Assembly (NCBI RefSeq): GCF_030268685.1
Contig: NZ_BSRQ01000001.1
Location: 62,001-126,000, forward strand
Length of the DNA: 64,000 bases
Direction: 5' to 3'
Source of the DNA: Microtetraspora sp. NBRC 13810
Lineage (GTDB): Bacteria; Actinomycetota; Actinomycetes; Streptosporangiales; Streptosporangiaceae
The notes beneath the pieces were generated by a model. That model ran no database searches and had not been told where the DNA came from. It saw only the letters and a program-made list of their open reading frames with translations. The translations under genes and the position numbers were made by a program. Of the stretch, positions 6,113 through 56,101 are shown piece by piece; positions within the stretch are counted from its first letter, which is position 1, and each line of letters begins with the position of its first letter.

Positions 6113-6706
6113 TCAACGTCCCCCGCCCGGCACCGCCATCCGCATCGTGAGCGCGTGTTCGACCAAGGTGATCAGGGTGGACTTGACCTTGTCGCGGGAT
6201 CTGGCGTCGGTCTGCACGATGGGGATGTGCGGGGCCAGCGTCATCGCCTCCCTGATCTCCTCCTCCCCGTGGGAGTACTGCCCGTCGAACCCGTTGACCG
6301 CCACGACGAAGGGCAGCCGGGCCTCCTCGAAGTAGTCCACCGCGGGGAAGCTGTCGGCGAGCCTGCGCGTGTCGATCAGCACGATCGCGCCGATGGCGCC
6401 GCGCACCAGGTCGTCCCACATGAACCAGAACCGGTGCTGACCCGGCGTGCCGAACAGGTAGAGGATCAGGTCCCGGTCCAGCGACACACGGCCGAAGTCC
6501 ATCGCCACCGTGGTGGTCGTCTTGTGCGGCGTCAGCGCCACGTCGTCGATACCCGCGCTCGCGTCCGTCATCACCGCCTCGGTGGTCAACGGCAAAATCT
6601 CCGACACGGCACCGACGAAGGTCGTCTTGCCGACGCCGAAGCCACCAGCCACGACAATCTTCGTCGAGGTGAGCCCGCCGCCCCCATTAGAGCCTGCGAA
6701 GTCCAC
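6113..6706 (-). CDS. cvnD: Conservon small GTPase CvnD (first conservon)
   Basis: Ras/MglA-like ATP/GTP-binding protein of 197 aa, the fourth member of a conservon. The P-loop GGFGVGKTT covers residues 21-29. The switch II region reads FGTPGQHRFWFMWDDL, where the usual Asp of DxxGQ is replaced. NGFD stands in for the NKxD base-recognition motif. CvnD proteins are thought to cycle nucleotide at the membrane with CvnA-C, analogous to a eukaryotic GPCR/G-protein module; that analogy is from the literature. GTG start, overlapping the cvnC end by 20 bp, which implies translational coupling. Confidence 0.93.
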   Translation of the reverse strand: MDFAGSNGGGGLTSTKIVVAGGFGVGKTTFVGAVSEILPLTTEAVMTDASAGIDDVALTPHKTTTTVAMDFGRVSLDRDLILYLFGTPGQHRFWFMWDDLVRGAIGAIVLIDTRRLADSFPAVDYFEEARLPFVVAVNGFDGQYSHGEEEIREAMTLAPHIPIVQTDARSRDKVKSTLITLVEHALTMRMAVPGGGR

Positions 6707-7148
6707 TGAGCACCCTTTCCAGCAGGTTGAGATCCGGCTTGCCCGCGTCCAGTTGCGGCTGGTGCACCTGCACCAGCCCTTCGGCGGCCATGTCGGCCAC
6801 CAGGATCCTGGTCACGCCCAGCGGCATCCGGAGTATCGCGGAGATCTCGGCGACCGACCGCACCTGCCGGCACATGGCGCTGATCCCCTGGTATTCGGGG
6901 GTGCGGTTGGAGAGATCGTGGTGGAGCGAGGTCACCGAGGAGACGAGCGCCTCCATGGCGAGCTGGGTCCGGGGGGCGGTCCGCCCCCCGGTCATGGCGT
7001 AGGGCCGGACGAGGGAGGTCTGCTCCCTGTTGCCCGGCGTCGCGTTGTAGGACGCCCCGGCCGCGTAGCGGTGGGGGTCGTCCATCGGATGGTACGGCGC
7101 ACGGCCGCCTAAACCGTCGCCATCCCCAGTCCATCCGTGGCCTGTCAC
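6687..7148 (-). CDS. cvnC: Conservon DUF742 protein CvnC (first conservon)
   Basis: DUF742 protein of 153 aa. The family core is LVRPYAMTGGRT, then a winged-helix-like stretch CRQVRSVAEISAILRMPLGVTRILVADMAAEGLVQVHQP, cited here in parts, and the conserved tail RVLSGLRRL. It carries an N-terminal extension of about 45 residues absent from the copy at 18631-18993. GTG start with a strong AGGAGGAGGGT site. It lies 26 bp after cvnB. The helix-turn-helix-like core suggests DNA or protein binding, but its biochemical role is not established. Confidence 0.92.
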   Translation of the reverse strand: MTGHGWTGDGDGLGGRAPYHPMDDPHRYAAGASYNATPGNREQTSLVRPYAMTGGRTAPRTQLAMEALVSSVTSLHHDLSNRTPEYQGISAMCRQVRSVAEISAILRMPLGVTRILVADMAAEGLVQVHQPQLDAGKPDLNLLERVLSGLRRL

Positions 7149-7174
7149 GGCACCCTCCTCCTAGGTCGTCCTCT

Positions 7175-7597
7175 TTACCGGGGGTGGGAAGCCTGAAGCT
7201 CCGCGCGTACGGCAGGCGTGAGCACCTGTCCGGCCCGCTCCACGAGAAGTGTCATCTGGTACGCCACCAGACCCATGTCGCAATCCGCCGCCGCCAGCAC
7301 GGCGAGACAGGAGCCGTCACTGATCGACATGATGAGCAGCAGCCCGCGCTGCATCTCCACCACCGTCTGGGTGACGGCTCCGCCCTCGAACACTCGAGAG
7401 GCGCCCTGGGTCAGGCTGATCAGGCCCGCCGCCACCGCGGCGAGCTGGTCGGCCCGGTCCTTGGGGAACCCCTCGGAGAAAGCCAACGGAAGCCCGTCGG
7501 ACGACACGACCACCGTGTGCGCCACACCAGGCACGTTGTGTACGAAATCGGTGATCAGCCAATTGACCCCACGGGCTGCCTGGCTCAGCTCTCTCAC
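7175..7597 (-). CDS. cvnB: Conservon roadblock/LC7 protein CvnB (first conservon)
   Basis: Roadblock/LC7-domain protein of 140 aa. The fold usually acts as a regulator or GAP-like partner of small GTPases such as MglB for MglA. Recognisable features are VNWLITDFVHNVPGVAHTVVVS at the start, the highly conserved GASRVFEGGAVTQTVVEM, and DMGLVAYQMTLLVERAGQVLTP near the end. GTG start behind GGAGGA. It lies between cvnA (101 bp upstream) and cvnC. Confidence 0.93.
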   Translation of the reverse strand: MRELSQAARGVNWLITDFVHNVPGVAHTVVVSSDGLPLAFSEGFPKDRADQLAAVAAGLISLTQGASRVFEGGAVTQTVVEMQRGLLLIMSISDGSCLAVLAAADCDMGLVAYQMTLLVERAGQVLTPAVRAELQASHPR

Positions 7598-7697
7598 GAG
7601 TCCTCCTTCATAGGCCCCGTCCGGGTGCCCCTTTCCACGGCCCGCGCGTTCGCGGGCCCTCCTCTGCCGGATTCACCGGCGGAGCATGATCGCCCGC

Positions 7698-10600
7698 TCA
7701 CGGAACCTCTCCTTGCGTGTCGAAATTCCGCGTGAAATCGGGATAAGCGCCGTCTTCGACTTCGCCGCGAGCGACGGCGCGGCCCTGCCGTACCCCGTGC
7801 TGGAAGCTCGCCAGGCGGCTGCGCACGGCGTCGGGGGAGATCGTGGGGCGGGGCGGCGGTGTGGGTGAGGGCGCCGCGCTCGGCGCGGCGGAGCCCGGGA
7901 CCAGGTTGGCCTTGGGCACCCGCTTGGGCAGGCCGGCCTGGGTGATGCCGCCCTTGGCGGGCTCGCTCGCCGCGCGCGCCGCCTGCCACCCCTCGTCGCT
8001 CGGCGAGGACCAGCGCCTGCTCTCCGGGGCCCTGCTCTCGCGCGTGGGCAGTGGTTCCCGGGCCTGCTCGGCGACGGGCGGGCTCTCCGGGCGCGCGGCG
8101 GGCTCGGCCCTGCGGAACCAGTCGGACTCGACCGCCGCGAAGATCGGCAGGTAGTCCTCCTCGGCGTCGGCGACCGAGTTGTGCACCACGGGGAGCGGGC
8201 CGGTGGCGTCGGGCTCCCCGCCCATCCCGAACCGCCGGAGCGGCCCGGTCTCCGGCCCGCCGAACGACGCGAGCGGGTCCGCCGGCATCGAGGACATCGA
8301 AGGCGGCGCGGAGGGAGGCATCGAAGGCGGCGGAGTGGGTATCGACGGCATCGACGGCGTGGACGTCATCGAGGACATCGGAGAGCCGGGAGGCATCGAC
8401 GGCATGGAGGGCATCGACCGCATCGACCAGGATCCGGAGTCGCCCACCAGCGAGTTGTCCGTCCAGCCGCCGGGCGGGGCCACGGGGTCGGGCCAGGACA
8501 TGTCGCCCGAGTTCTCGCCGTAGGGACGACCGTTCCGGTGACCGCCGAAGGAGTCGGCCGGGGGCGCGCCGCCGAACAGCGGGCCGGTCTGCCCCGCGCC
8601 GCCGTCGAACATCGACGCGCCCTGCGAGGGCGGGCTGTCGAAGAGCGACGTGCCAGGCCTGCCCGGGGTCTCGTACGGGCTGGGAGCGGCCATGACCGGC
8701 TGCCGGCCGAACATCGGGTCACCGAAGGACGGATCGCCGAAGGACGGGTCGAAGGGCGTGCCGTACCCGGGGGGAGCCTGCGTGCGGGGGTCGGGCGCGG
8801 AGAGCAGCGTGGTGGGCAGCAGCACCATGGCGGTGAGGCCGCCGCTGTCCTGCTGGCGGAGCTGCACCCGGATGCCGTGCCGCAGGGCCAGGCGGCCGAC
8901 CACGAACAGGCCCATCCGGCGCGACACCGACACGTCCACCACCGGCGGGTTGGCCAGCCGCCAGTTGGCCCCGGCGAGTTCCTCGGCGGTCATCCCGATG
9001 CCGACGTCGCTGACCGACACCATCACGCCGCCGCCGTCGATGCGGTTGCTGCTGACGGTCACCTTGGTCTCGCGCGGGGAGAAGGACAGCGCGTTCTCGA
9101 CCAGCTCGGCGATCAGGTGGACGACGTCGTTGACCGAGGTGCCGGCGACGGCCGGGCCGGGCGGGCAGCTGACGGCCACCCGCTCGTAGTTCTCGACCTC
9201 CGACAGGGAGGCGCGGACCACGTCGATGAGCGGGACCGGCTGGCTCCACCTGCGCGCGGGCTCCTGGCCGGCGAGGACCAGCAGGTTCTCGCTGTTCCTG
9301 CGCATGCGGGTGGCGAGGTGGTCCAGGCGGAACAGGTTGCCGAGACGCTCCTCGTCCTGCTCGCCCTGCTCCAGGCTCTCGATGAGCGAGAGCTGGCGTT
9401 CGACCAGGGTCTGGCTGCGCCGGGAGAGGTTGACGAACATCGCGTTGACGTTGCTCCGCAGCGTGGCCTCCTGGCCGGCCAGCCGTACGGCTTCGCGGTG
9501 CACCTCGTCGAAGGCGCGGGCGACCTCACCGATCTCGTCGTGCGACGACACGCCGATGGGCTCGATCTCGACCGGCGTCATGTCGCCGCTGTCGCGCAGC
9601 GACTGGACGGTCTCGGGCAGCCGCTGACCGGCGATCGACAGGGCCTCGGTGCGCAGCCTGCGCAGCGGGCTGACCAGCGAGCGCGCCATGACCAGGGTGA
9701 TCAGGAGGACGGCGAGCAGCAGGACGGCGACGATGACCGAGATCGTCACGGCGCTCTGCCGTTCCTCGTCGCGGAGCCGGTGGCTGGTCGTGACGATCGA
9801 GGACGCGAGCCGCTCCTCCACCTGGCGCATGCGGTCGATGGTGTCGGTCGAGGACTCGAACCAGCGGTCGAGTTGCTGGGGCTGGAGCACGCTCGGGCCG
9901 CCGCGGGCGAGCTGCCCACTGGCCGCGACGAGGGCGCGGAGCCGGATCTGCTCGGCGCGGTCGACGAGCTGGCCGCTGACGGTGTCGTCGTAGAACTGGC
10001 GCTGCGGGAGCGCGGCCTCGGACTTGAACACGGCGATCTCGCTGTTGCGTTCCGCCCGCGCGGCGACGAAGTCGTCGAAAAGGCCGCTGGTGAAGGCCCT
10101 CGCGGGCAGCGCGACGGCCAGCGTCGCCCGCTCGCGCGAGGCGTGCTCCTTCGCCCTGGCGATGGCCCCGAAGGCGGACACGCTGGCGGAGAGGGTGTCG
10201 TCGTCGACGCCCTGGCCGACGTCGTCGTGCACGGCGAGCAGGTCGGTGATCAGGTTGGAGTACCGGTCGATCACCGGCGGCGGCAGCAGTTCGGTGTCGG
10301 TCACGGCGGCGCGGATGCCCGGCAGCTCGCCCAGCCGGCTGCGGACCCTGGCGATCTCGTCGCGGGCGCGCTGGCCGCCGGTCTCGCCGCTGACGAGTTC
10401 CGCGGCGTCGATGCCCGACCGCACGCCGCCGAGGGCGTCGTTCACCGCCCTGCGCTGCGACTCCACGGCCGTGCGGGTCTTCTCGACGCTCCTGCCCTCC
10501 GCCACGTAGCGCGCGGAGAGGTCGCGCTCCAGCTCGACCTCGTGCGCCAGGGCGCTGAGGGTGCTGGCGAAGGTCGCCATCTCCCCGGTGCGTTCGTATT

Positions 10601-10856
10601 CCGCCGCGGTGTCGAGAGAGCTGACGATCTGCACGGTGCCGAAGGCGACACCGGTGAGCGTCGGGACGAGCACGAGCGCCACGAGCCTGGTGCGCACCCG
10701 CCAGTTACGCAGAGAGAGGCCCCCACCCCGCCTTTTCTCCCGGGTACCGTCCGCGGCGTCGGACGTCGCGCCCTGCTCGGCGTCGGGCGCGTTGGCCTGT
10801 AAGGCCACGGCCAGACCGCGGTTCTCGCGGTCCGCAGGGGTTGATGCTCTCCTCAT
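7698..10856 (-). CDS. cvnA: Conservon sensor kinase-like protein CvnA (first conservon)
   Basis: Large membrane sensor with an HATPase_c domain, 1052 aa from the ATG at 10854-10856. A TTG four codons earlier (10866-10868) abuts the AGGAGAGG site, so the ATG is preferred. Order: membrane segment about 55-79, extracytoplasmic NIT-type (nitrate/nitrite sensing-like) region to about 345, second membrane segment about 370-392, HAMP, a dimerisation helix with LDHLATRMRR (His near 513), N-box AELVENALSFSP and G1 box DVGIGM. Beyond about residue 690 it is a long disordered Pro/Ser/Met/Gly tail with SMPSMP repeats. In conservons this protein is the proposed receptor-like partner of CvnB-D; its ligand is unknown. 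Confidence 0.92.
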   Translation of the reverse strand: MRRASTPADRENRGLAVALQANAPDAEQGATSDAADGTREKRRGGGLSLRNWRVRTRLVALVLVPTLTGVAFGTVQIVSSLDTAAEYERTGEMATFASTLSALAHEVELERDLSARYVAEGRSVEKTRTAVESQRRAVNDALGGVRSGIDAAELVSGETGGQRARDEIARVRSRLGELPGIRAAVTDTELLPPPVIDRYSNLITDLLAVHDDVGQGVDDDTLSASVSAFGAIARAKEHASRERATLAVALPARAFTSGLFDDFVAARAERNSEIAVFKSEAALPQRQFYDDTVSGQLVDRAEQIRLRALVAASGQLARGGPSVLQPQQLDRWFESSTDTIDRMRQVEERLASSIVTTSHRLRDEERQSAVTISVIVAVLLLAVLLITLVMARSLVSPLRRLRTEALSIAGQRLPETVQSLRDSGDMTPVEIEPIGVSSHDEIGEVARAFDEVHREAVRLAGQEATLRSNVNAMFVNLSRRSQTLVERQLSLIESLEQGEQDEERLGNLFRLDHLATRMRRNSENLLVLAGQEPARRWSQPVPLIDVVRASLSEVENYERVAVSCPPGPAVAGTSVNDVVHLIAELVENALSFSPRETKVTVSSNRIDGGGVMVSVSDVGIGMTAEELAGANWRLANPPVVDVSVSRRMGLFVVGRLALRHGIRVQLRQQDSGGLTAMVLLPTTLLSAPDPRTQAPPGYGTPFDPSFGDPSFGDPMFGRQPVMAAPSPYETPGRPGTSLFDSPPSQGASMFDGGAGQTGPLFGGAPPADSFGGHRNGRPYGENSGDMSWPDPVAPPGGWTDNSLVGDSGSWSMRSMPSMPSMPPGSPMSSMTSTPSMPSIPTPPPSMPPSAPPSMSSMPADPLASFGGPETGPLRRFGMGGEPDATGPLPVVHNSVADAEEDYLPIFAAVESDWFRRAEPAARPESPPVAEQAREPLPTRESRAPESRRWSSPSDEGWQAARAASEPAKGGITQAGLPKRVPKANLVPGSAAPSAAPSPTPPPRPTISPDAVRSRLASFQHGVRQGRAVARGEVEDGAYPDFTRNFDTQGEVP

Positions 10857-11085
10857 TTGCTTGCGCAACCTCTCCTCGGACGGTCAGGTGCAGCGGGAAG
10901 CACGTCATGTGCGGCGTGGGACGCGTACGCATTCATGGGGCGAGGGTTATTTGAGCACAATCGGTCAAGTTCGGCCAATGCCCCGTAAGCCCCAAATGAG
11001 TTTTTATCCCACCGGCCCACCCAAGCCCGGCCCGACGACTCCTTATGCCGTAATGCGTATTATCTGCGGACCGAAACCCGTGACC

Positions 11086-16046: not shown

Positions 16047-16628
16047 TCAGGCCCGCGCGGCGGGCAGCGTGCGGAGCACCACGTGCTCGACGAGCGCGAT
16101 CAGGGTGGCCTTCACGGCCTCCCGCGATCGCGCGTCGGTGGTCACCATCGGCACGTCGGCGGAGATGCTGAGCGCCTCGCGGACCTCGTCCACGGTGTGC
16201 GCCTGCTGCCCGTCGAACCCGTTGAGCCCGATGATGAAGGGCAGCCCCGCCTCTTCGAAGTAGTCGATGGCGGGGAAGCTGTCGGCCAGCCTGCGGCTGT
16301 CGACGAGGACCACGGCCCCGATCGCGCCGCGGACCAGGTCGTCCCACATGAACCAGAAGCGGTTCTGACCGGGCGTGCCGAACAGGTAGAGGATCAGGTC
16401 CCGGTCCAGCGACACACGGCCGAAGTCCATCGCCACGGTCGTCGTCCGCTTGGTCGGGACGTGCTCGAGGTCGTCCACCCCCCGGCTCGCCTCCGTCATG
16501 ACCGCCTCGGTCGTGAGGGGCATGATCTCGGAGACCGCGCCGACGAAGGTGGTCTTACCGACGCCGAAACCGCCCGCCACCACGATCTTCGTGGACGTCA
16601 TCCCTAGATCAGAGTCTGCGAAGCCCAC
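16047..16628 (-). CDS. cvnD: Conservon small GTPase CvnD (partial conservon)
   Basis: CvnD-type GTP-binding protein of 193 aa, with P-loop GGFGVGKTTFVGAVSEIMPL, switch region FGTPGQNRFWFMWDDL and NGFD. The GTG at 16626-16628 is chosen by alignment with the other two copies, which begin VDFA and here VGFA. No cvnC gene precedes it, but the bases upstream still encode the cvnC terminal codons (see 16609-16647). The effector segment differs from its paralogues (PTKRTTTVAM, GLNGFDGQQAHTVDE), so it may have distinct partners. Co-directional with the cvnB copy upstream. Confidence 0.9.
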   Translation of the reverse strand: MGFADSDLGMTSTKIVVAGGFGVGKTTFVGAVSEIMPLTTEAVMTEASRGVDDLEHVPTKRTTTVAMDFGRVSLDRDLILYLFGTPGQNRFWFMWDDLVRGAIGAVVLVDSRRLADSFPAIDYFEEAGLPFIIGLNGFDGQQAHTVDEVREALSISADVPMVTTDARSREAVKATLIALVEHVVLRTLPAARA

Positions 16629-16647
16629 TGAACACCTTTCCAAACAT
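16609..16647 (-). CDS. 12-residue mini-ORF, remnant of cvnC 3' end
   Basis: ATG to TGA encoding MFGKVFSGLRRL. The last eight residues, VFSGLRRL, match the conserved cvnC C-terminus VLSGLRRL found at both complete conservons. The stop overlaps the cvnD start by 20 bp, exactly as full cvnC genes do here. A base lost in the GGAAAGG stretch and an ATG just before it leave only this fragment. It may be a fossil of a deleted cvnC, or may be kept to couple translation into cvnD. Ribosome site is weak (AGGA close to the ATG). Confidence 0.5.
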   Translation of the reverse strand: MFGKVFSGLRRL

Positions 16648-16731
16648 CCGTCCTGACGATCGTACCGTTCCACGAGAGGTCGGATGATCTTTTGCCGGTG
16701 TTGGTGGGACCGCCGCCCCGTCCGGCCGGGG

Positions 16732-17154
16732 TCACCAGCTCCTGACGGCGGAGAGCTCGGCCCGTACGGCGGGCGTGAGCACCTTGCCGGCCCGCTCGAC
16801 CAGGATCGTCATCTGGTAGGCGACGAGGCCCAGGTCACAGTCGGGGGCGGCCAGCACCGCCAGGCAGGACCCGTCGCTGATCGCCATCACCAGCAGCAGC
16901 CCGCGCTCCATCTCGACCACCGTCTGGGTGACCGCGCCGCCCTCGAACACCCTGGACGCGCCCGCCGTGAGGCTCACCAGACCGGAGGCGACCGCGGCGA
17001 GCTGGTCCGCCCGGTCCCTGGGGAAACCCTGGGAGAAGGACAGCGGCAGCCCGTCGGAGGACACCACCGCCGCGTGCGCCACCCCCGGCACCTCCTCGAC
17101 GAAGGCCGTGACCAGCCAGTTCACGTCCTGCGCCGGTCCGCTCATGTTCCGCAT
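16732..17154 (-). CDS. cvnB: Conservon roadblock/LC7 protein CvnB (partial conservon)
   Basis: Roadblock/LC7 protein of 140 aa, close to the other two CvnB copies, with VNWLVTAFVEEVPGVAHAAVVS, GASRVFEGGAVTQTVVEM and DLGLVAYQMTILVERAGKVLTP. ATG behind GGAGAAG. No cvnA lies upstream: the next 900 bp hold no recognisable gene. The pair cvnB-cvnD may serve as an extra regulator/GTPase set for one of the two complete systems, comparable to MglB-MglA. Confidence 0.92.
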   Translation of the reverse strand: MRNMSGPAQDVNWLVTAFVEEVPGVAHAAVVSSDGLPLSFSQGFPRDRADQLAAVASGLVSLTAGASRVFEGGAVTQTVVEMERGLLLVMAISDGSCLAVLAAPDCDLGLVAYQMTILVERAGKVLTPAVRAELSAVRSW

Positions 17155-18062: not shown

Positions 18063-18650
18063 TCAGGCGGGGGCGCCGTAGGCGGCCCTGATCTGGACGA
18101 CGTGCTCGACGAGGGTGATCAGCGTCGACTTCACGGAGTCGCGGGAGCGCGCGTCGGTGCGGACGATCGGGATGTGCGGGGCGATGGCCATCGCCTCGCG
18201 CACCTCCTCCTCGTTGTGCAGGAACTGCCCGTCCCAGCCGTTGACGGCGATCACGAAGGGCAGCCGCGCCTCTTCGAAGTAGTCGATCGCCGGGAAGCTG
18301 TCGGCGAGGCGCCGCGTGTCCACCAGGACGACGGCGCCGATGGCGCCGCGGACCAGGTCGTCCCACATGAACCAGAACCGGTGCTGGCCGGGCGTGCCGA
18401 ACAGGTAGAGGATCAGGTCCCGGTCCAGTGACAGACGGCCGAAGTCCATCGCCACGGTCGTGGTCGACTTCGTCGGCGTGAGCGCCAGGTCGTCGATGCC
18501 GGCACTCGCGTCCGTCATCACGGCTTCGGTCGTCAGCGGCAGGATCTCCGACACCGCGCCCACGAACGTGGTCTTCCCGACGCCGAAACCGCCCGCAACG
18601 ACGATCTTGGTCGACGTCAGACCACCGTGGCTAGAGTCTGCGAAGTCCAC
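18063..18650 (-). CDS. cvnD: Conservon small GTPase CvnD (last conservon)
   Basis: CvnD of 195 aa with P-loop GGFGVGKTT, switch FGTPGQHRFWFMWDDL and base-recognition-like NGWD. It is nearly the same as the first conservon copy through residue 130 and diverges most at the C-terminus (VEHVVQIRAAYGAPA). GTG start, overlapping the cvnC end by 20 bp. Last gene of the cvnA-B-C-D operon on the minus strand. Confidence 0.93.
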   Translation of the reverse strand: MDFADSSHGGLTSTKIVVAGGFGVGKTTFVGAVSEILPLTTEAVMTDASAGIDDLALTPTKSTTTVAMDFGRLSLDRDLILYLFGTPGQHRFWFMWDDLVRGAIGAVVLVDTRRLADSFPAIDYFEEARLPFVIAVNGWDGQFLHNEEEVREAMAIAPHIPIVRTDARSRDSVKSTLITLVEHVVQIRAAYGAPA

Positions 18651-18993
18651 TGAGCACCCTTTCGAGCATGTGCAAATCTGGATGTCCCTGGTTCAGGCGC
18701 GGCTGGTGCAGCAGCAGCAGACCCTCGTCCGCCATGTCCGCCACCAGCACCCGTGCCACACCCAGCGGGACCCGGAGCAATGCCGAGATCTCGGCCACCG
18801 ATCGAACCGTGCGGCAGAGCACGACGATGGATTCCTGCTCCGGGGTGAGCAGAGCCAGCTCGTCGTCCGGGACGGAGTAAGAAGAGATCAGCGTCTCCAT
18901 CGCCAGGTGATAGCGCGGTTCGACGCGACCTCCCGTCATCGCGTACGGACGAAACAGAGGCTCCTCTTCCCCTGCGCCGTCGGCGCCGTGCAC
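18631..18993 (-). CDS. cvnC: Conservon DUF742 protein CvnC (last conservon)
   Basis: DUF742 protein of 120 aa, the usual length, starting MHGADGAGEEEPLFRPYAMTGGR in parts. The core CRTVRSVAEISALLRVPLGVARVLVADMADEGLL is followed by the family tail RVLSGLRRL. GTG start. It follows cvnB by 22 bp and feeds into cvnD through a 20 bp overlap. Confidence 0.92.
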   Translation of the reverse strand: MHGADGAGEEEPLFRPYAMTGGRVEPRYHLAMETLISSYSVPDDELALLTPEQESIVVLCRTVRSVAEISALLRVPLGVARVLVADMADEGLLLLHQPRLNQGHPDLHMLERVLSGLRRL

Positions 18994-19015: not shown

Positions 19016-19438
19016 TCATCGCGTCCTGGACATCTGCAGCTCAGCCCGGAGGGCCGGGGTCAGCACCTGTCCGGCCCGATCGACGAGCAGGGTCATCTGG
19101 TAGGCCACCAGGCCCATGTCGCACTCCGGCGAGGCGAGCACGGCGAGCACGGAGCCGTCGCTGATCGCCATGACCAGCAGCAGTCCGCGCTCCATCTCGA
19201 CCACGGTCTGTGTGACCGCGCCGCCCTCGAAGACGCGCGAGGCTCCCACGGTGAGGCTGAGCAGTCCGGCGGCGACGGCCGCCAGCTGGTCCGCCCTGTC
19301 CTCAGGGAACCCCTCCGAGTTGGCCAGGCACAGCCCGTCTGCCGAGACGACCACCGCGTGCGCGACACCGGGCGTGCCGCGGACGAACTCGGTGATCAGC
19401 CAGTCGAACCTCCGGGCGTCATGGCTCAGCGTGGTCAC
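19016..19438 (-). CDS. cvnB: Conservon roadblock/LC7 protein CvnB (last conservon)
   Basis: Roadblock/LC7 protein of 140 aa with FDWLITEFVRGTPGVAHAVVVS, GASRVFEGGAVTQTVVEM and DMGLVAYQMTLLVDRAGQVLTP. It differs from the other copies mostly at the N-terminus and in LCLANSEGFPEDRAD. GTG behind GGAGGAG. It lies 55 bp after cvnA. Confidence 0.93.
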   Translation of the reverse strand: MTTLSHDARRFDWLITEFVRGTPGVAHAVVVSADGLCLANSEGFPEDRADQLAAVAAGLLSLTVGASRVFEGGAVTQTVVEMERGLLLVMAISDGSVLAVLASPECDMGLVAYQMTLLVDRAGQVLTPALRAELQMSRTR

Positions 19439-19493: not shown

Positions 19494-22400
19494 TCACTCG
19501 CCCTCTTCCTTATCCGCTCTTATACCAGCGGAGTCATCTCGTACTTCCGCCCGGCCCCGCCGTACGCCCTGCTGCAGGCTGGCCATGCGGCTACGGACCC
19601 GGTCGGCGGACAGAGGAGGCATCGGCGGCGCGGCCGACGGCGCGGGCGTGGCCGCGGCCCGGCCCGGCACGAGGTTGGCCTTGGGAGTGCGCTTGGGCAG
19701 ACCGGCCGAGGTGATCCCGCCCATGGTGGGCTCGGCGGCGGCGGCAGCGGCGCGCCAGCCCTCGTCGGCCGGAGTGCGCCAGTCGCTGGCCGCCGGGGCG
19801 GCCGGCCGCGCCTGCGGGGGCTCCGGGGGCGCGCTCACCGCGGCCCTGGCCGACTCCCACTCCTCCAGCCGCTCGTTCTCCTCGCGCTTGGCGCGCTCGG
19901 CCCGCTCCTCCTCGCTGACCACGGGCTCCTCCGGAGCCGCGGGGACATCCGCCTTGCGGAACCACGCGGACTCGACGGAGGCGAAGATCGGGAGGTATTC
20001 CTCCTCGGACTCCAGCGACGAGACCTCCACCACCGGCATGGACGCGGTGATCGGGTCGTCGTCGTGGGAGGTCCAGGGCGAGAACGGCTGGGCGCCCCGC
20101 GACTGGTCGCCGCCGAATCCCTCGGGCCGCGCGCTCGGCGCGGTCTCCGGGCGGCTGAAGACGCCCGTGTCGGCCGAGGAGGAGGCGGAACCCGCGGGGG
20201 GCTGCTGGCGGCGGAAGCCGGGGTCTGCGGTCGCGCCGGGCGGCGTGCGCCCGAAGGAGCCGCTCTGGCTCGCGAACGGATCGGCCTGGCCGCCGAACGA
20301 GTCGCCCGCCTGACTGGCGAACGGGTCGCCGCCCCGGCTCGCGAACGGATCCCCGGCCTGACTGGCGAACGGATCGCCGCCCCGGCTCGCGAACGGGTCA
20401 CCGGCCTGACTGGCGAACGGATCGCCGCCGCGGCTCGCGAACGGGTCACCACTCTGGCTCGCGAAGGGGTCACCGCTCCGGCCGCCGCCGAACGAATCGC
20501 CGGCGCCCTGACTGGCGAACGGGTCACTCCCCCGGCTCGCGAACGGGTCACCGCTCTGGCTCGCGAACGGATCGCCGCCGCGGCTCGCGAACGGGTCACC
20601 ACTCTGGCTGGCGAAGGGGTCACCGCTCTGGCTCGCGAACGGGTCACCGCTCCGGCCGCCGCCGAACGAATCGCCGGCGCCCTGACTGGCGAACGGATCG
20701 CCCGCCTGGCTGTTGAACGGGTCGATCCGGGCGAAGGGGTCGCTCGCGTGGCTGGTGAACGGGTCGCCCGCGTTGCTGTTGAACGGATCCTGGACCTTGT
20801 TGAACGGGTCGTTGTCCATCGGCGTCGGGGCGCCGAAGCCGCGCTGCGGGCCGCCGAACCCCTGGCCCGAGGAGGCGGGCTGGGGACGCCTGGAGTCGCC
20901 GCCCGCCGGCTGGCCGGAGAACTCGCGGCGCAGCGGGGTCTCCGAACCGAAGAGGCTGCCCGAGGCGCCCTGTCCGGCGGGCTGGAAGGGGCCGAAGCCC
21001 TGGGCCGGGCCCGCGCCGGCCGCGGCGGGAGCCGTACCGGTGGAACCCCAGCTCGGGGTGGGGTTCTGCTGCGTGGCGGCGGAGTCCACGATGAGTGTGG
21101 GCGGGATGAGCACCATGGCGATGAGGCCGTTGCTCTCGGCGAGCCGGAGCTGGGCGCGGATGCCGTGGCGCAGGGCCAGGCGGCCGACCACGAACAGGCC
21201 CATCCGGCGGGACACGGAGACGTCGACCACCGGGGGCTCGGCGAGCCTGCGGTTGGCCTCGGTCAGCTCCTCCTCGGTCATGCCGATGCCCTGGTCGGTC
21301 ACCGACAGCAGCGCGCCGCCGCCTTCGATGAGGCTGCTCGACACCGTGACCTGGGTGTTGCGCGGCGAGAACTGGATGGCGTTCTCGACCAGCTCGGCGA
21401 CCAGGTGGACGAGGTCGTTGGCGGCGCTGCCGACCACGGAGGTGGTCCGGTGCACCTTGACCTGGACCCGCTCGTAGTCCTCGACCTCCGACAGCGAGGC
21501 GCGGACGACGTCGACGAGCTTGGCCGGCTGACTGCGCCTGCGGGTGGGCTCGTGGCCGGCGAGGACCAGCAGGTTCTCACTGTTGCGGCGCATGCGGGTG
21601 GCCAGGTGGTCGAGCTTGAACAGGTCGCCGAGGCGCTTGCCGTCCTCCTCGCCCTTCTCCAGACCGTCGATCAGCGAGATCTGCCGTTCCACCAGGGTCT
21701 GGGTACGCCGGGAGAGGTTGACGAACATGGAGCTGATGTTGCCCCGAAGCTCGGCCTCCTCACCCGCGAGGCGTACGGCCTGCCGGTGGACCTCGTCGAA
21801 CGCCTGCGCCACTTCACCGATCTCATCCGTCGAGTTGACCGAGATCGGCTGGATGTCCGGTGGCGTCGCGTCACCGGTGACCCGCATGTCGCGCACGACG
21901 TTCGGCAACCGGAAACCGGCCACCTCCAGGGCCTCGGTGCGCAGGCGGCGCAGCGGGGAGACCATCGAACGGGCGATGAAGACGGTCAGCGCCAGGACGA
22001 GGAGCAGCAGGAGCAGGATCGACGCGCCGGCGATGGCGGCGTTGCGCTGCTCCGCGCCCACGAGTTCCTGGTTGCGGGCGACGACGTCGTCGGCGACCTT
22101 CTCCTCGACCTTGGCGATCAGGTCGATGGTGACCGTGTTGTCGTCGTACCACTCGGCGACGTCGCTGACCAGCGAGCCCTGCGCGATGCGCTTGCCGCTG
22201 GCCTGGATCGCGATGGCGCGGGACTTGGTGAGCTCGGCGTTGTACCGGCGGGGGTCGGTCAGCGTCCGGTAGAGCAGCTGCACGTTCTCGATGCCGGCCT
22301 CGCCGCCGAACTCCGCGAGGTGCTCACCCTGCCGGGAGCGGGAGGCGATGAAGTCCTCCATCTCCTGGGAGGTCACCAGTCGCGGTTCGAACCGGCCGAT

Positions 22401-23117
22401 GACCAGCCGGACCCGCTGCTTGGACGCCTCTTCCTTGGCGTGCGCCAGCGAGCTGAGGCCGCGCATGTCACCGACGGTGATCGAGTCGTCGGCCACGGTC
22501 GCGAGCTCGTCGTGGGCGGCGAGGAGACCGGTGATCAGCGAGGTGTACGCGGGCACCTGCACCGGCTGCTGCTTGCGCAGGTCGGCCAGGCCGGTGAGCT
22601 GGGTCTTGGCCTGGGCGATCGCCTCGACGACGCGGGCTCCGAAGGAGGAGTCCACCTTGTCGAAGTCGGCGATGACCTTGGTCGACAGTCCGTCGACGAC
22701 CTTCTGGCGGTCCTGCCAGGCCGACTCCAGGTTGACCTGCTTGCCGTCGATCTTGGCGCTTCTGGCGTATCCCGTCCAGGCGCCCATGTCACGCTCCTGG
22801 CCGAGGGCTTCGGCGAGGGCCCGGATGTTCGCGGAGTACTCCGCGGCGAGACCGGTCCGTTCCAGGGTGGTGATGCTGTCGACGGACTCGTACACCCGCG
22901 CGCCGGCGAGGAACACCGCGACAGCCGTGGGCACGAGAATCAGGGCGGTGAGACGCGTCCGAACGCGCCAGTTCCGCAACGCGAAGACCCGCTTCGCGAA
23001 CGAGGGTCGCCCGCGATCATGTTTGGCGGTACGACCACTGTCGGCACTACCCGTCGCCACGCTCCCGCTACCCCCAACCGTCGCAACCAAACGTGGACCA
23101 TTCGACCACAAGGTCAC
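19494..23117 (-). CDS. cvnA: Conservon sensor kinase-like protein CvnA with DPF repeats
   Basis: Membrane sensor of up to 1207 aa. Order: membrane segment about 54-76 after LRNWRVRTRL, NIT-like extracytoplasmic region, second membrane segment, HAMP, dimerisation helix with LDHLATRMRR, N-box AELVENAIQFSP and G1 box DQGIGM. Residues about 770-953 hold 20 copies of DPF, mostly as GDPFASQ and GDPFASR octapeptides, then an acidic/Ala-rich tail. The GTG at 23115-23117 is the longest start; a GTG at 23058-23060 behind GGGGGTAGCGGGAG is also plausible. First gene of the last conservon. The ligand and any kinase activity are not established. Confidence 0.9.
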   Translation of the reverse strand: MTLWSNGPRLVATVGGSGSVATGSADSGRTAKHDRGRPSFAKRVFALRNWRVRTRLTALILVPTAVAVFLAGARVYESVDSITTLERTGLAAEYSANIRALAEALGQERDMGAWTGYARSAKIDGKQVNLESAWQDRQKVVDGLSTKVIADFDKVDSSFGARVVEAIAQAKTQLTGLADLRKQQPVQVPAYTSLITGLLAAHDELATVADDSITVGDMRGLSSLAHAKEEASKQRVRLVIGRFEPRLVTSQEMEDFIASRSRQGEHLAEFGGEAGIENVQLLYRTLTDPRRYNAELTKSRAIAIQASGKRIAQGSLVSDVAEWYDDNTVTIDLIAKVEEKVADDVVARNQELVGAEQRNAAIAGASILLLLLLVLALTVFIARSMVSPLRRLRTEALEVAGFRLPNVVRDMRVTGDATPPDIQPISVNSTDEIGEVAQAFDEVHRQAVRLAGEEAELRGNISSMFVNLSRRTQTLVERQISLIDGLEKGEEDGKRLGDLFKLDHLATRMRRNSENLLVLAGHEPTRRRSQPAKLVDVVRASLSEVEDYERVQVKVHRTTSVVGSAANDLVHLVAELVENAIQFSPRNTQVTVSSSLIEGGGALLSVTDQGIGMTEEELTEANRRLAEPPVVDVSVSRRMGLFVVGRLALRHGIRAQLRLAESNGLIAMVLIPPTLIVDSAATQQNPTPSWGSTGTAPAAAGAGPAQGFGPFQPAGQGASGSLFGSETPLRREFSGQPAGGDSRRPQPASSGQGFGGPQRGFGAPTPMDNDPFNKVQDPFNSNAGDPFTSHASDPFARIDPFNSQAGDPFASQGAGDSFGGGRSGDPFASQSGDPFASQSGDPFASRGGDPFASQSGDPFASRGSDPFASQGAGDSFGGGRSGDPFASQSGDPFASRGGDPFASQAGDPFASRGGDPFASQAGDPFASRGGDPFASQAGDSFGGQADPFASQSGSFGRTPPGATADPGFRRQQPPAGSASSSADTGVFSRPETAPSARPEGFGGDQSRGAQPFSPWTSHDDDPITASMPVVEVSSLESEEEYLPIFASVESAWFRKADVPAAPEEPVVSEEERAERAKREENERLEEWESARAAVSAPPEPPQARPAAPAASDWRTPADEGWRAAAAAAEPTMGGITSAGLPKRTPKANLVPGRAAATPAPSAAPPMPPLSADRVRSRMASLQQGVRRGRAEVRDDSAGIRADKEEGE
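20259..20810 (-). repeat. 24-bp tandem repeats encoding GDPFASQ/GDPFASR
   Basis: About 550 bp within cvnA made of degenerate 24 bp units such as GAACGGGTCACCGCTCTGG followed by CTCGC (plus strand). Twenty DPF tripeptides are encoded. A longer block, GDPFASQGAGDSFGGGRSG, occurs twice, showing unit-level duplication. The array is a likely site of copy-number change. Confidence 0.9.
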
Positions 23118-23191
23118 GGAACATATACGAAAGACCGGCTAGACCGGACGTGAATCGTTACAAAGGTGACAGAATGCTCAGCACTGCCGGA

Positions 23192-54805: not shown

Positions 54806-56101
54806 ATGCATGTTCGTCCCCCGGTATCCGCGTCTCCGCTGACCGCGGTGCTCACGGTCATCGTGCTGGAGCTGCTGCGGATGAGCGGCCCGCTGATCGG
54901 CTCCGCGCCCGGCCCGGCCTGCGAGGCCCTGCTCGCCGGCGCCGTCTTCACCGCCCCCGCGCTCCTGCTGTGGTCCGCGGCCCGGCTCGCCGGGCGTGCA
55001 CGGCTGCTCGGCGGCTCAAGGGTGGCCCGGTGGGCGGCCGGGGCCGGGGCCGGGTCCGGGTCAGGGGCCGGGGCCGGGGCCGGGGCCGGGGCCGGGGCCG
55101 GGGCGATGGTGGCGCTGGTCGCGGGGCTGGTGACGGTACGGCTCGCGGTGCAGGCGTTCGCCGCGCCGCCGGTGGCGCTGGGGCTGGCTGCGGTCGCCCT
55201 GGGGCTCGCCGCGCTGGTCGCGACGGTGAGCAGGGCCGAGGGCGGGGCCGCCGCGATGGGGCTGCTGTGCGGGATGGGCGTGGACGTCGGCGTGCGCTCG
55301 CTCTTCGGCACCTGGGACGTGGTCTGGCGTCCCGGCTGGGGCCCGTGGCTGGTCGTCGCCGTGGAGTGCGCCGCCGCGCTCGCCCTCACCTGGTGGACGC
55401 TGCGGCAGCCGGCGCCGGCCCGGCCGGTGGGGTCGCGGGCCTGGCTGATCGGCCCGTTCCTCGGCCTCACGGTGCCGTTCCTGGCCGGCACGGCGTTCTC
55501 CGCGTCCCAGGCGGGGGTGCCGTCCGCGCTCGCGGCCGGCGCCGGGGTCCTCGGCGCGCTGTTCGCGGTGGTCGCGGCGGGCGAGGCGCGGCACACGGCG
55601 ACGCTCGCCGGGCGCGCGGCCGGAACCGCGGCGGCGATCCTGTTCGCGGGGGCGCTGCTCGCCGCCCTGCTCAGCACCGGCCCGCACGTGCTGGCGGCGG
55701 TGGCCGCGGCGCAGATCGCGGCCGGCCTGCTGCTCGCCCGCGGCCTGGAGGGCGCCGGCCGCGCCGCCGCGGCCGGCGGGCGCGAGGCGGGCGTCGCCGG
55801 GCTGGGGGCGGGACTGGGGTTCCTCGCGGTCGTCCTGCCCTACCAGGGCTTCCACGAGCCGGCGCTGAGCGCACCGGACCTGGTCGGGCCGCTGGCCGGG
55901 ATCGCCATACTGGCCGTGGCCGGGGTGCGCGGGACGCCCGGCACGGCGGCCGGGCCGCTCACCTACGAGCTGGGCCTGGTGGGCGGCTGCGCCCTCGCCC
56001 TGCTCGCCCCCGTCGTCGCGCTGGTCAGCACCCCGCTCCCGGCCGCCCCGCCGCCGGTGCGGAGCGAGGTCAAACTGCTCACCTGGAACATCGACCACTG
56101 A
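54806..56101 (+). pseudogene. Truncated membrane protein with lost EEP phosphatase domain
   Basis: 431 codons with about ten hydrophobic segments and Gly/Ala-rich composition. The chain ends SEVKLLTWNIDH at a stop. LLTWNI is the first motif of the endonuclease/exonuclease/phosphatase (EEP) domain that follows the membrane part in related actinobacterial proteins. The rest of the domain is missing, and its C-terminal part resumes at once in another frame (56102-56406). The membrane part may still be made. A GGGGCC repeat codes for GAGAGA within it. ATG at 54806. Confidence 0.65.
55040..55105 (+). repeat. GGGGCC hexanucleotide repeat
   Basis: About ten hexamer units of GGGGCC (two of them degenerate, GGGTCC and GGGTCA), with an uninterrupted run from 55064. 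It encodes alternating Gly-Ala/Ser and has high potential to form G-quadruplexes on the plus strand. Confidence 0.9.

Follow-up and report, generated by a model that had tools for sequence, protein, structure and literature searches.

A DPF repeat array in the internal linker of a conservon sensor kinase, tentatively read as a phenylalanine 'sticker' sequence

Background

Conservon systems consist of a kinase (CvnA), a Roadblock protein (CvnB), a DUF742 protein (CvnC) and a small GTPase (CvnD) (PMC13343842, PMC8510531). The route by which CvnA signals reach CvnB/C/D is still open (PMC13343842), and neither a disordered linker, nor a C-terminal module, nor repeats in CvnA are mentioned in PMC13343842 or PMC8510531. 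Arrays of DPF motifs are known from Eps15, which has 14 of them in a disordered region; EH domains bind them weakly and multivalently, accept other Phe motifs as well, and through this binding promote phase separation (PMC12370899).

The window (the whole 64,000-nucleotide stretch of Microtetraspora sp. NBRC 13810 DNA that was analysed) encodes a protein that resembles conservon CvnA in being a NIT-HAMP-HATPase kinase followed by CvnB, CvnC and CvnD. A 20-unit DPF linker is not among the CvnA features described in those papers. Searches of the open-access literature turned up no relevant account of bacterial kinases with DPF or FG repeats, and within that literature both the DPF array and its family-wide recurrent pattern appear undescribed.

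Conservon context

The cvnA gene (19494-23117, minus strand) encodes a sensor kinase of 1207 aa and is identified by Pfam matches (NIT, 1.6e-21; HATPase_c, 1.9e-11; HAMP, 4.2e-6) and by the synteny of its orthologues. The protein is laid out as NIT, HAMP, DHp-like and HATPase_c domains, a long linker, and a conserved C-terminal module. It is followed on the same strand by cvnB (19016-19438; Roadblock/LC7, PF03259, 6.6e-24), cvnC (18631-18993; DUF742, PF05331, 1.8e-32) and cvnD (18063-18650), a small GTPase gene whose product matches PF03029 ATP_bind_1 (1.5e-31). Two features of a conservon CvnA are present, namely a NIT/HAMP/HATPase sensor-kinase-like protein and cvnB, cvnC and cvnD after it, an arrangement repeated in the relatives that were compared; the DPF-array protein is an ordinary conservon CvnA. 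An antisense ORF on the plus strand (20064-23153) was discounted: it lies opposite a gene with Pfam support and is an artefact of GC-rich coding sequence.

Genes glnD, glnK and amtB lie 5' of cvnA, giving the context amtB-glnK-glnD / cvnABCD. The order amtB-glnK-glnD-cvnA-cvnB is kept in 21 distinct related genomes of the Streptosporangiaceae (26 loci, several of them duplicates of genomes present in two collections), and CvnA orthology is therefore secure.

A paralogous cvnA (7698-10868, minus strand) has a complete conservon downstream, and its product is 49% identical to the DPF CvnA over the core. The sequence-only reading contrasted the two proteins. The paralogue indeed has SMP repeats and no DPF, but its linker also carries SFG-type and other Phe motifs (DPSFGDPSFGDPMFG, SLFD, SMFD, PLFGG). 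Adjoining the DPF conservon are a cvnD-like GTPase gene and a cvnB-like Roadblock gene (16047-16673 and 16732-17154, minus strand) without cvnA or cvnC. Counting the complete conservon at 6113-10868, there are three conservon-type loci within about 17 kb.

Structure of the DPF array

The array (20259-20810, minus strand; residues 770-953) contains 20 DPF and three DSF units with a 24-bp period. The earlier count was right: exactly 20 DPF tripeptides are found at residues 770-948, all in the frame of ORF 19494-23117 (minus strand) and mostly one per 8 residues, a copy number that the 114-contig assembly could affect. The first DPF codons are at 20802-20810 and the last at 20274-20282. Tandem Repeats Finder also recovered the 24-bp repeat that had been noted (21.8 copies, 20260-20786), together with higher-order periods of 48, 72, 150 and 174 bp. 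There are 23 in-register units including the three D-S-F units; spacing is 6-9 residues and no unit is missing. The 174-bp (58-residue) duplication (20334-20681, minus strand; residues 813-928) has copies that are 82% identical and holds both GAGDSFGGGRSGDPFASQS blocks. These 19-residue blocks (residues 813-831 and 871-889) were originally described as diverged. This holds for their relation to the octapeptide; to each other they are identical in protein, and 55 of 57 nucleotides are identical. Elsewhere in the window, at 55036-55104, there is a tandem array of 6-bp GGCCGG (11.5 copies).

The rest of a 112,592-aa sample of the genome contains only 7 DPF tripeptides against 11.9 expected; a chance origin of the array is thus excluded. 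Codon or GC bias as a general source of DPF was rejected on the same count, and no other protein in the sample has three or more DPF.

The motif is regular, as first proposed. D and F are kept between units and their neighbours vary. At first and second codon positions, D-P-F requires one parsimony step over 23 units versus 13 for three neighbouring codons, in a region that is itself recognised by its D-x-F units and that offers few independent changes. Third positions of the D and P codons do vary between units; the F codons are all TTC, which makes synonymous change at F uninformative. The pattern is that expected under selection on D-x-F, though the changes are few.

Linker and C-terminal module

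The sequence-only reading placed the array in a cytoplasmic tail. About 190 conserved residues are found C-terminal to it, and because these conserved blocks come after the array, it belongs to an internal linker and not to a tail. The Phe-rich linker (20082-21047, minus strand; approximately residues 691-1012) extends from the HATPase domain to the LPIF module. Disorder of the array region had been proposed and is also predicted by AlphaFold2, which, run on the cytosolic half of CvnA, assigned no secondary structure and a pLDDT of about 29-39 to almost the whole stretch between HATPase and C-terminal module. F is the main hydrophobic residue of the linker, occurring about every 8 residues in D-P-F context; F makes up 9.3% and ILVM 3.8% of the residues, and 34 F were counted.

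The conserved C-terminal module (19497-20087, minus strand) consists of EEEYLPIFASVESAWFR, a helix EERAERAKREENERLEEWESARAA, AGLPKRTPKANLVPG and RSRMASLQQGVRRGR. Blocks EEEYLPIFASVESAWFR, AGLPKRTPKANLVPG and RSRMASLQQGVRRGR are common to the orthologues and the paralogue with small changes, and CvnA proteins further removed (L003, L004) have related motifs. The module (LPIF..ESxWFR, GLPKRxPKANLVPG, RMASxQQGVRRGR) has no Pfam match and is a candidate partner-binding module. Its non-repetitive sequence was used as the query with which relatives were retrieved.

Phe enrichment extends to other CvnA linkers. Across 32 of them the median F content is 5.6%, whereas 51 segments of low hydrophobicity from this genome have a median of 0.9% (Mann-Whitney p = 3e-12, which is indicative only, as the linkers are related). 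In the 464 kb sampled, the window's two CvnA linkers rank first and second in F among low-hydrophobicity segments; for this background, genes were called by a simple GC3-based method and TM segments were predicted crudely from hydropathy. Spacing of F is regular (CV 0.37 versus 0.91 for random placement); the chain is F-rich, otherwise poor in hydrophobic residues, and predicted to be disordered. DPF (present in 14 of the 32 linkers, 3.7 after shuffling), SFG (27, 8.1), FGQ (17, 3.4) and NPF (5, 1.2) are over-represented, and SPF, APF and GPF do not exceed the shuffled level; these counts describe a tendency and are not independent trials, the linkers being mutually related.

Orthologues and other carriers

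Copy number is clearly variable across the orthologues, which were drawn from the Streptosporangiaceae (20/13/8/4/4/4/2/0). Thermocatellispora has 13 copies, a third genus 8, Spongiactinospora 4, a Streptosporangium 2 and [Actinomadura] parvosata none; the arrays of 20, 13 and 8 copies thus represent three genera. Absence of DPF repeats from close relatives, which in combination with neutral variation in number had been named as evidence against the original proposal, was not seen, given the 13 and 8 copies there. DPF as the motif fared less well: close relatives share it, but it is not itself conserved, and other orthologues have SFGQ, DSGxF or AFSP repeats at the same linker position. Orthologues with 20 DPF and those with 2-4 have CvnB proteins that are 97-99% identical. 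This disfavours CvnB as a specific DPF receptor and, as far as comparison of sequences goes, argues against a strict CvnB-DPF lock and key.

A pattern of three close DPF motifs has matches in 55 of 345 genomes of the order, versus about ten genomes for the reversed pattern used as a control. Coding matches include eleven CvnA proteins in ten genomes, some of which are not orthologues of this CvnA. On a tree of CvnA kinase cores, DPF arrays need six changes, and for DPF-dominated rows at least three changes are forced by well-supported branches; the bootstrap stopped short of full convergence and leaves many branches open. DPF arrays in other CvnA proteins are, judging by this tree, of separate origin.

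DPF arrays are also carried by proteins other than CvnA; in Ser/Thr kinases and further membrane proteins they lie in cytosolic linkers. Five Ser/Thr kinases or close relatives (L060, L072, L112, L127 and L113, the last counted by its likeness to L112) have the array between the kinase domain and a TM segment. The array also occurs in an acyltransferase (L068), in an HtrA-like protease (L119) and in single-TM proteins that match no Pfam family. Outside CvnA, more of the carriers in the family than expected are TM proteins (18/28 versus 80/285, p = 2e-4). Seemingly related single-TM proteins from several genera (L088, L109, L110, L115) have DPFAKP/DPFASA arrays with a 6-residue period.

Two loci elsewhere in the same genome encode proteins with Phe-motif repeats. 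L027:4812-7079 (contig C1, about 797.8-800.1 kb) encodes a single-TM protein without a Pfam match; its long N-terminal region contains 8 DPF (DPFGQPRSGT repeats) and many TGSFGAG repeats. The product of L029:1826-3940 (contig C2) resembles, on visual inspection, a regulator of the sigma-factor type; it has a long SAPLFTPA / DTGPLFTP repeat region, which is another Phe-motif array, and a C-terminal TM segment.

Interpretation

The array may be a lineage-specific version of a selected Phe 'sticker' linker in a conservon sensor kinase, in which the exact repeat is replaceable. This is the preferred reading, held tentatively and somewhat short of probable. The comparisons fit a picture in which DPF would be one favoured solution among Phe repeats and the repeat sequence turns over rapidly. 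CvnA dimers at the membrane would make many weak Phe-mediated contacts through the linker, both with one another and with promiscuous pockets on partners; such contacts would keep the kinase and CvnB/C/D clustered, and array length would set the valency. We infer that stickers could act on signalling output through clustering. The sequence-only reading is borne out in part; the docking, condensate formation and tuning by copy number that it suggested may apply here. Eps15 is a precedent for promiscuous Phe recognition. Some observations run counter to the sticker reading: tandem duplication alone yields regular spacing, the L099 and L108 orthologues have fewer F with irregular spacing, and D is lost in one unit of the Thermocatellispora array.

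The main rival, rather unlikely on balance, is that the linker is a neutral flexible spacer. It need then only be long, flexible and soluble; slippage during replication, together with unequal recombination, would have spread the DPF units, and sequence turnover would reflect a lack of constraint. The array does consist of tandem duplications nested within one another (24, 48 and 174 bp), linker length ranges from 151 to 386 residues over the 32 linkers, and the linkers evolve fast between orthologues (pN/pS about 0.4-1.0 in segments of the linker versus 0.11-0.17 in the kinase core). A mere spacer does not, however, account for F at about six-fold the level of comparable low-complexity segments, for the preservation of D and F between units while the flanks change, or for the independent recurrence of F-motif arrays in CvnA linkers.

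DPF could instead be a true short linear motif for one dedicated receptor, like DPF/NPF with the AP2 appendage or EH domains in eukaryotes. The over-representation of F in D/N-P-F but not S/A/G-P-F context agrees with this, as does the occurrence of DPF arrays in Ser/Thr kinases, an HtrA-like protease and orphan single-TM proteins (one in this genome), as if they shared a partner. Orthologous linkers nevertheless drop DPF for SFGQ, DSGxF or AFSP while CvnB is highly conserved, and no receptor candidate emerged, AP2/EH-type receptors lying outside the scope of the search; such specific docking is decidedly unlikely. Substrate preferences of Ser/Thr kinases can involve F positions, and on this basis the linker might be mainly a platform for Ser/Thr phosphorylation (at DTGxF[GS]R and DSGxF repeats, for example), with F serving the preference of the kinase. 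The motif [DE][TS]GxF is present in the linkers of many orthologues, once here (DTGVFSR) and up to ten times elsewhere, and Ser/Thr kinases carry similar arrays; the DPF units, for their part, lack a conserved acceptor Thr at a fixed place and have S at +2 from F in most but not all cases. A phosphorylation platform is the least probable of these explanations, and very unlikely as the main role.

If the sticker reading is right, the Phe linker between kinase core and C-terminal module provides a concrete, mutable element for the question of CvnA signalling, and the natural series of 0-20 copies lets repeat number be examined against clustering strength. Recurrent independent DPF arrays in unrelated membrane signalling proteins would, if functional, represent a convergent bacterial sticker motif. 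A broader proposal, bold and on present evidence unlikely, is that membrane signalling proteins of the Streptosporangiaceae share a fast-evolving 'Phe-sticker grammar' (DPF, SFGQ, DSGxF) by which they might co-assemble into membrane-bound clusters, array length being an evolvable valency dial. It covers the cytosolic linkers of conservon kinases, Ser/Thr kinases, and HtrA-like and orphan single-TM proteins.

Comparison with known systems

The CvnA array resembles the Eps15-type arrays of clathrin-mediated endocytosis in having many DPF motifs in a region predicted to be disordered. It differs in that its units form a nearly perfect tandem repeat of 8 residues within a histidine-kinase-like protein; no sequence homology is claimed, and no AP2, FCHo or EH partner is known in this bacterium.

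In the FG-nucleoporin repeats, F is the main hydrophobic residue of a disordered chain rich in G, S, Q and P. The CvnA linkers share this dominance of F among the hydrophobic residues, and several orthologues have literal SFGQ repeats. Unlike the FG-nucleoporins, this CvnA linker is DPF-dominated and acidic; the likeness is one of sequence composition. If true, the 'Phe-sticker grammar' would be a bacterial counterpart of Eps15 or FG-repeat networks.
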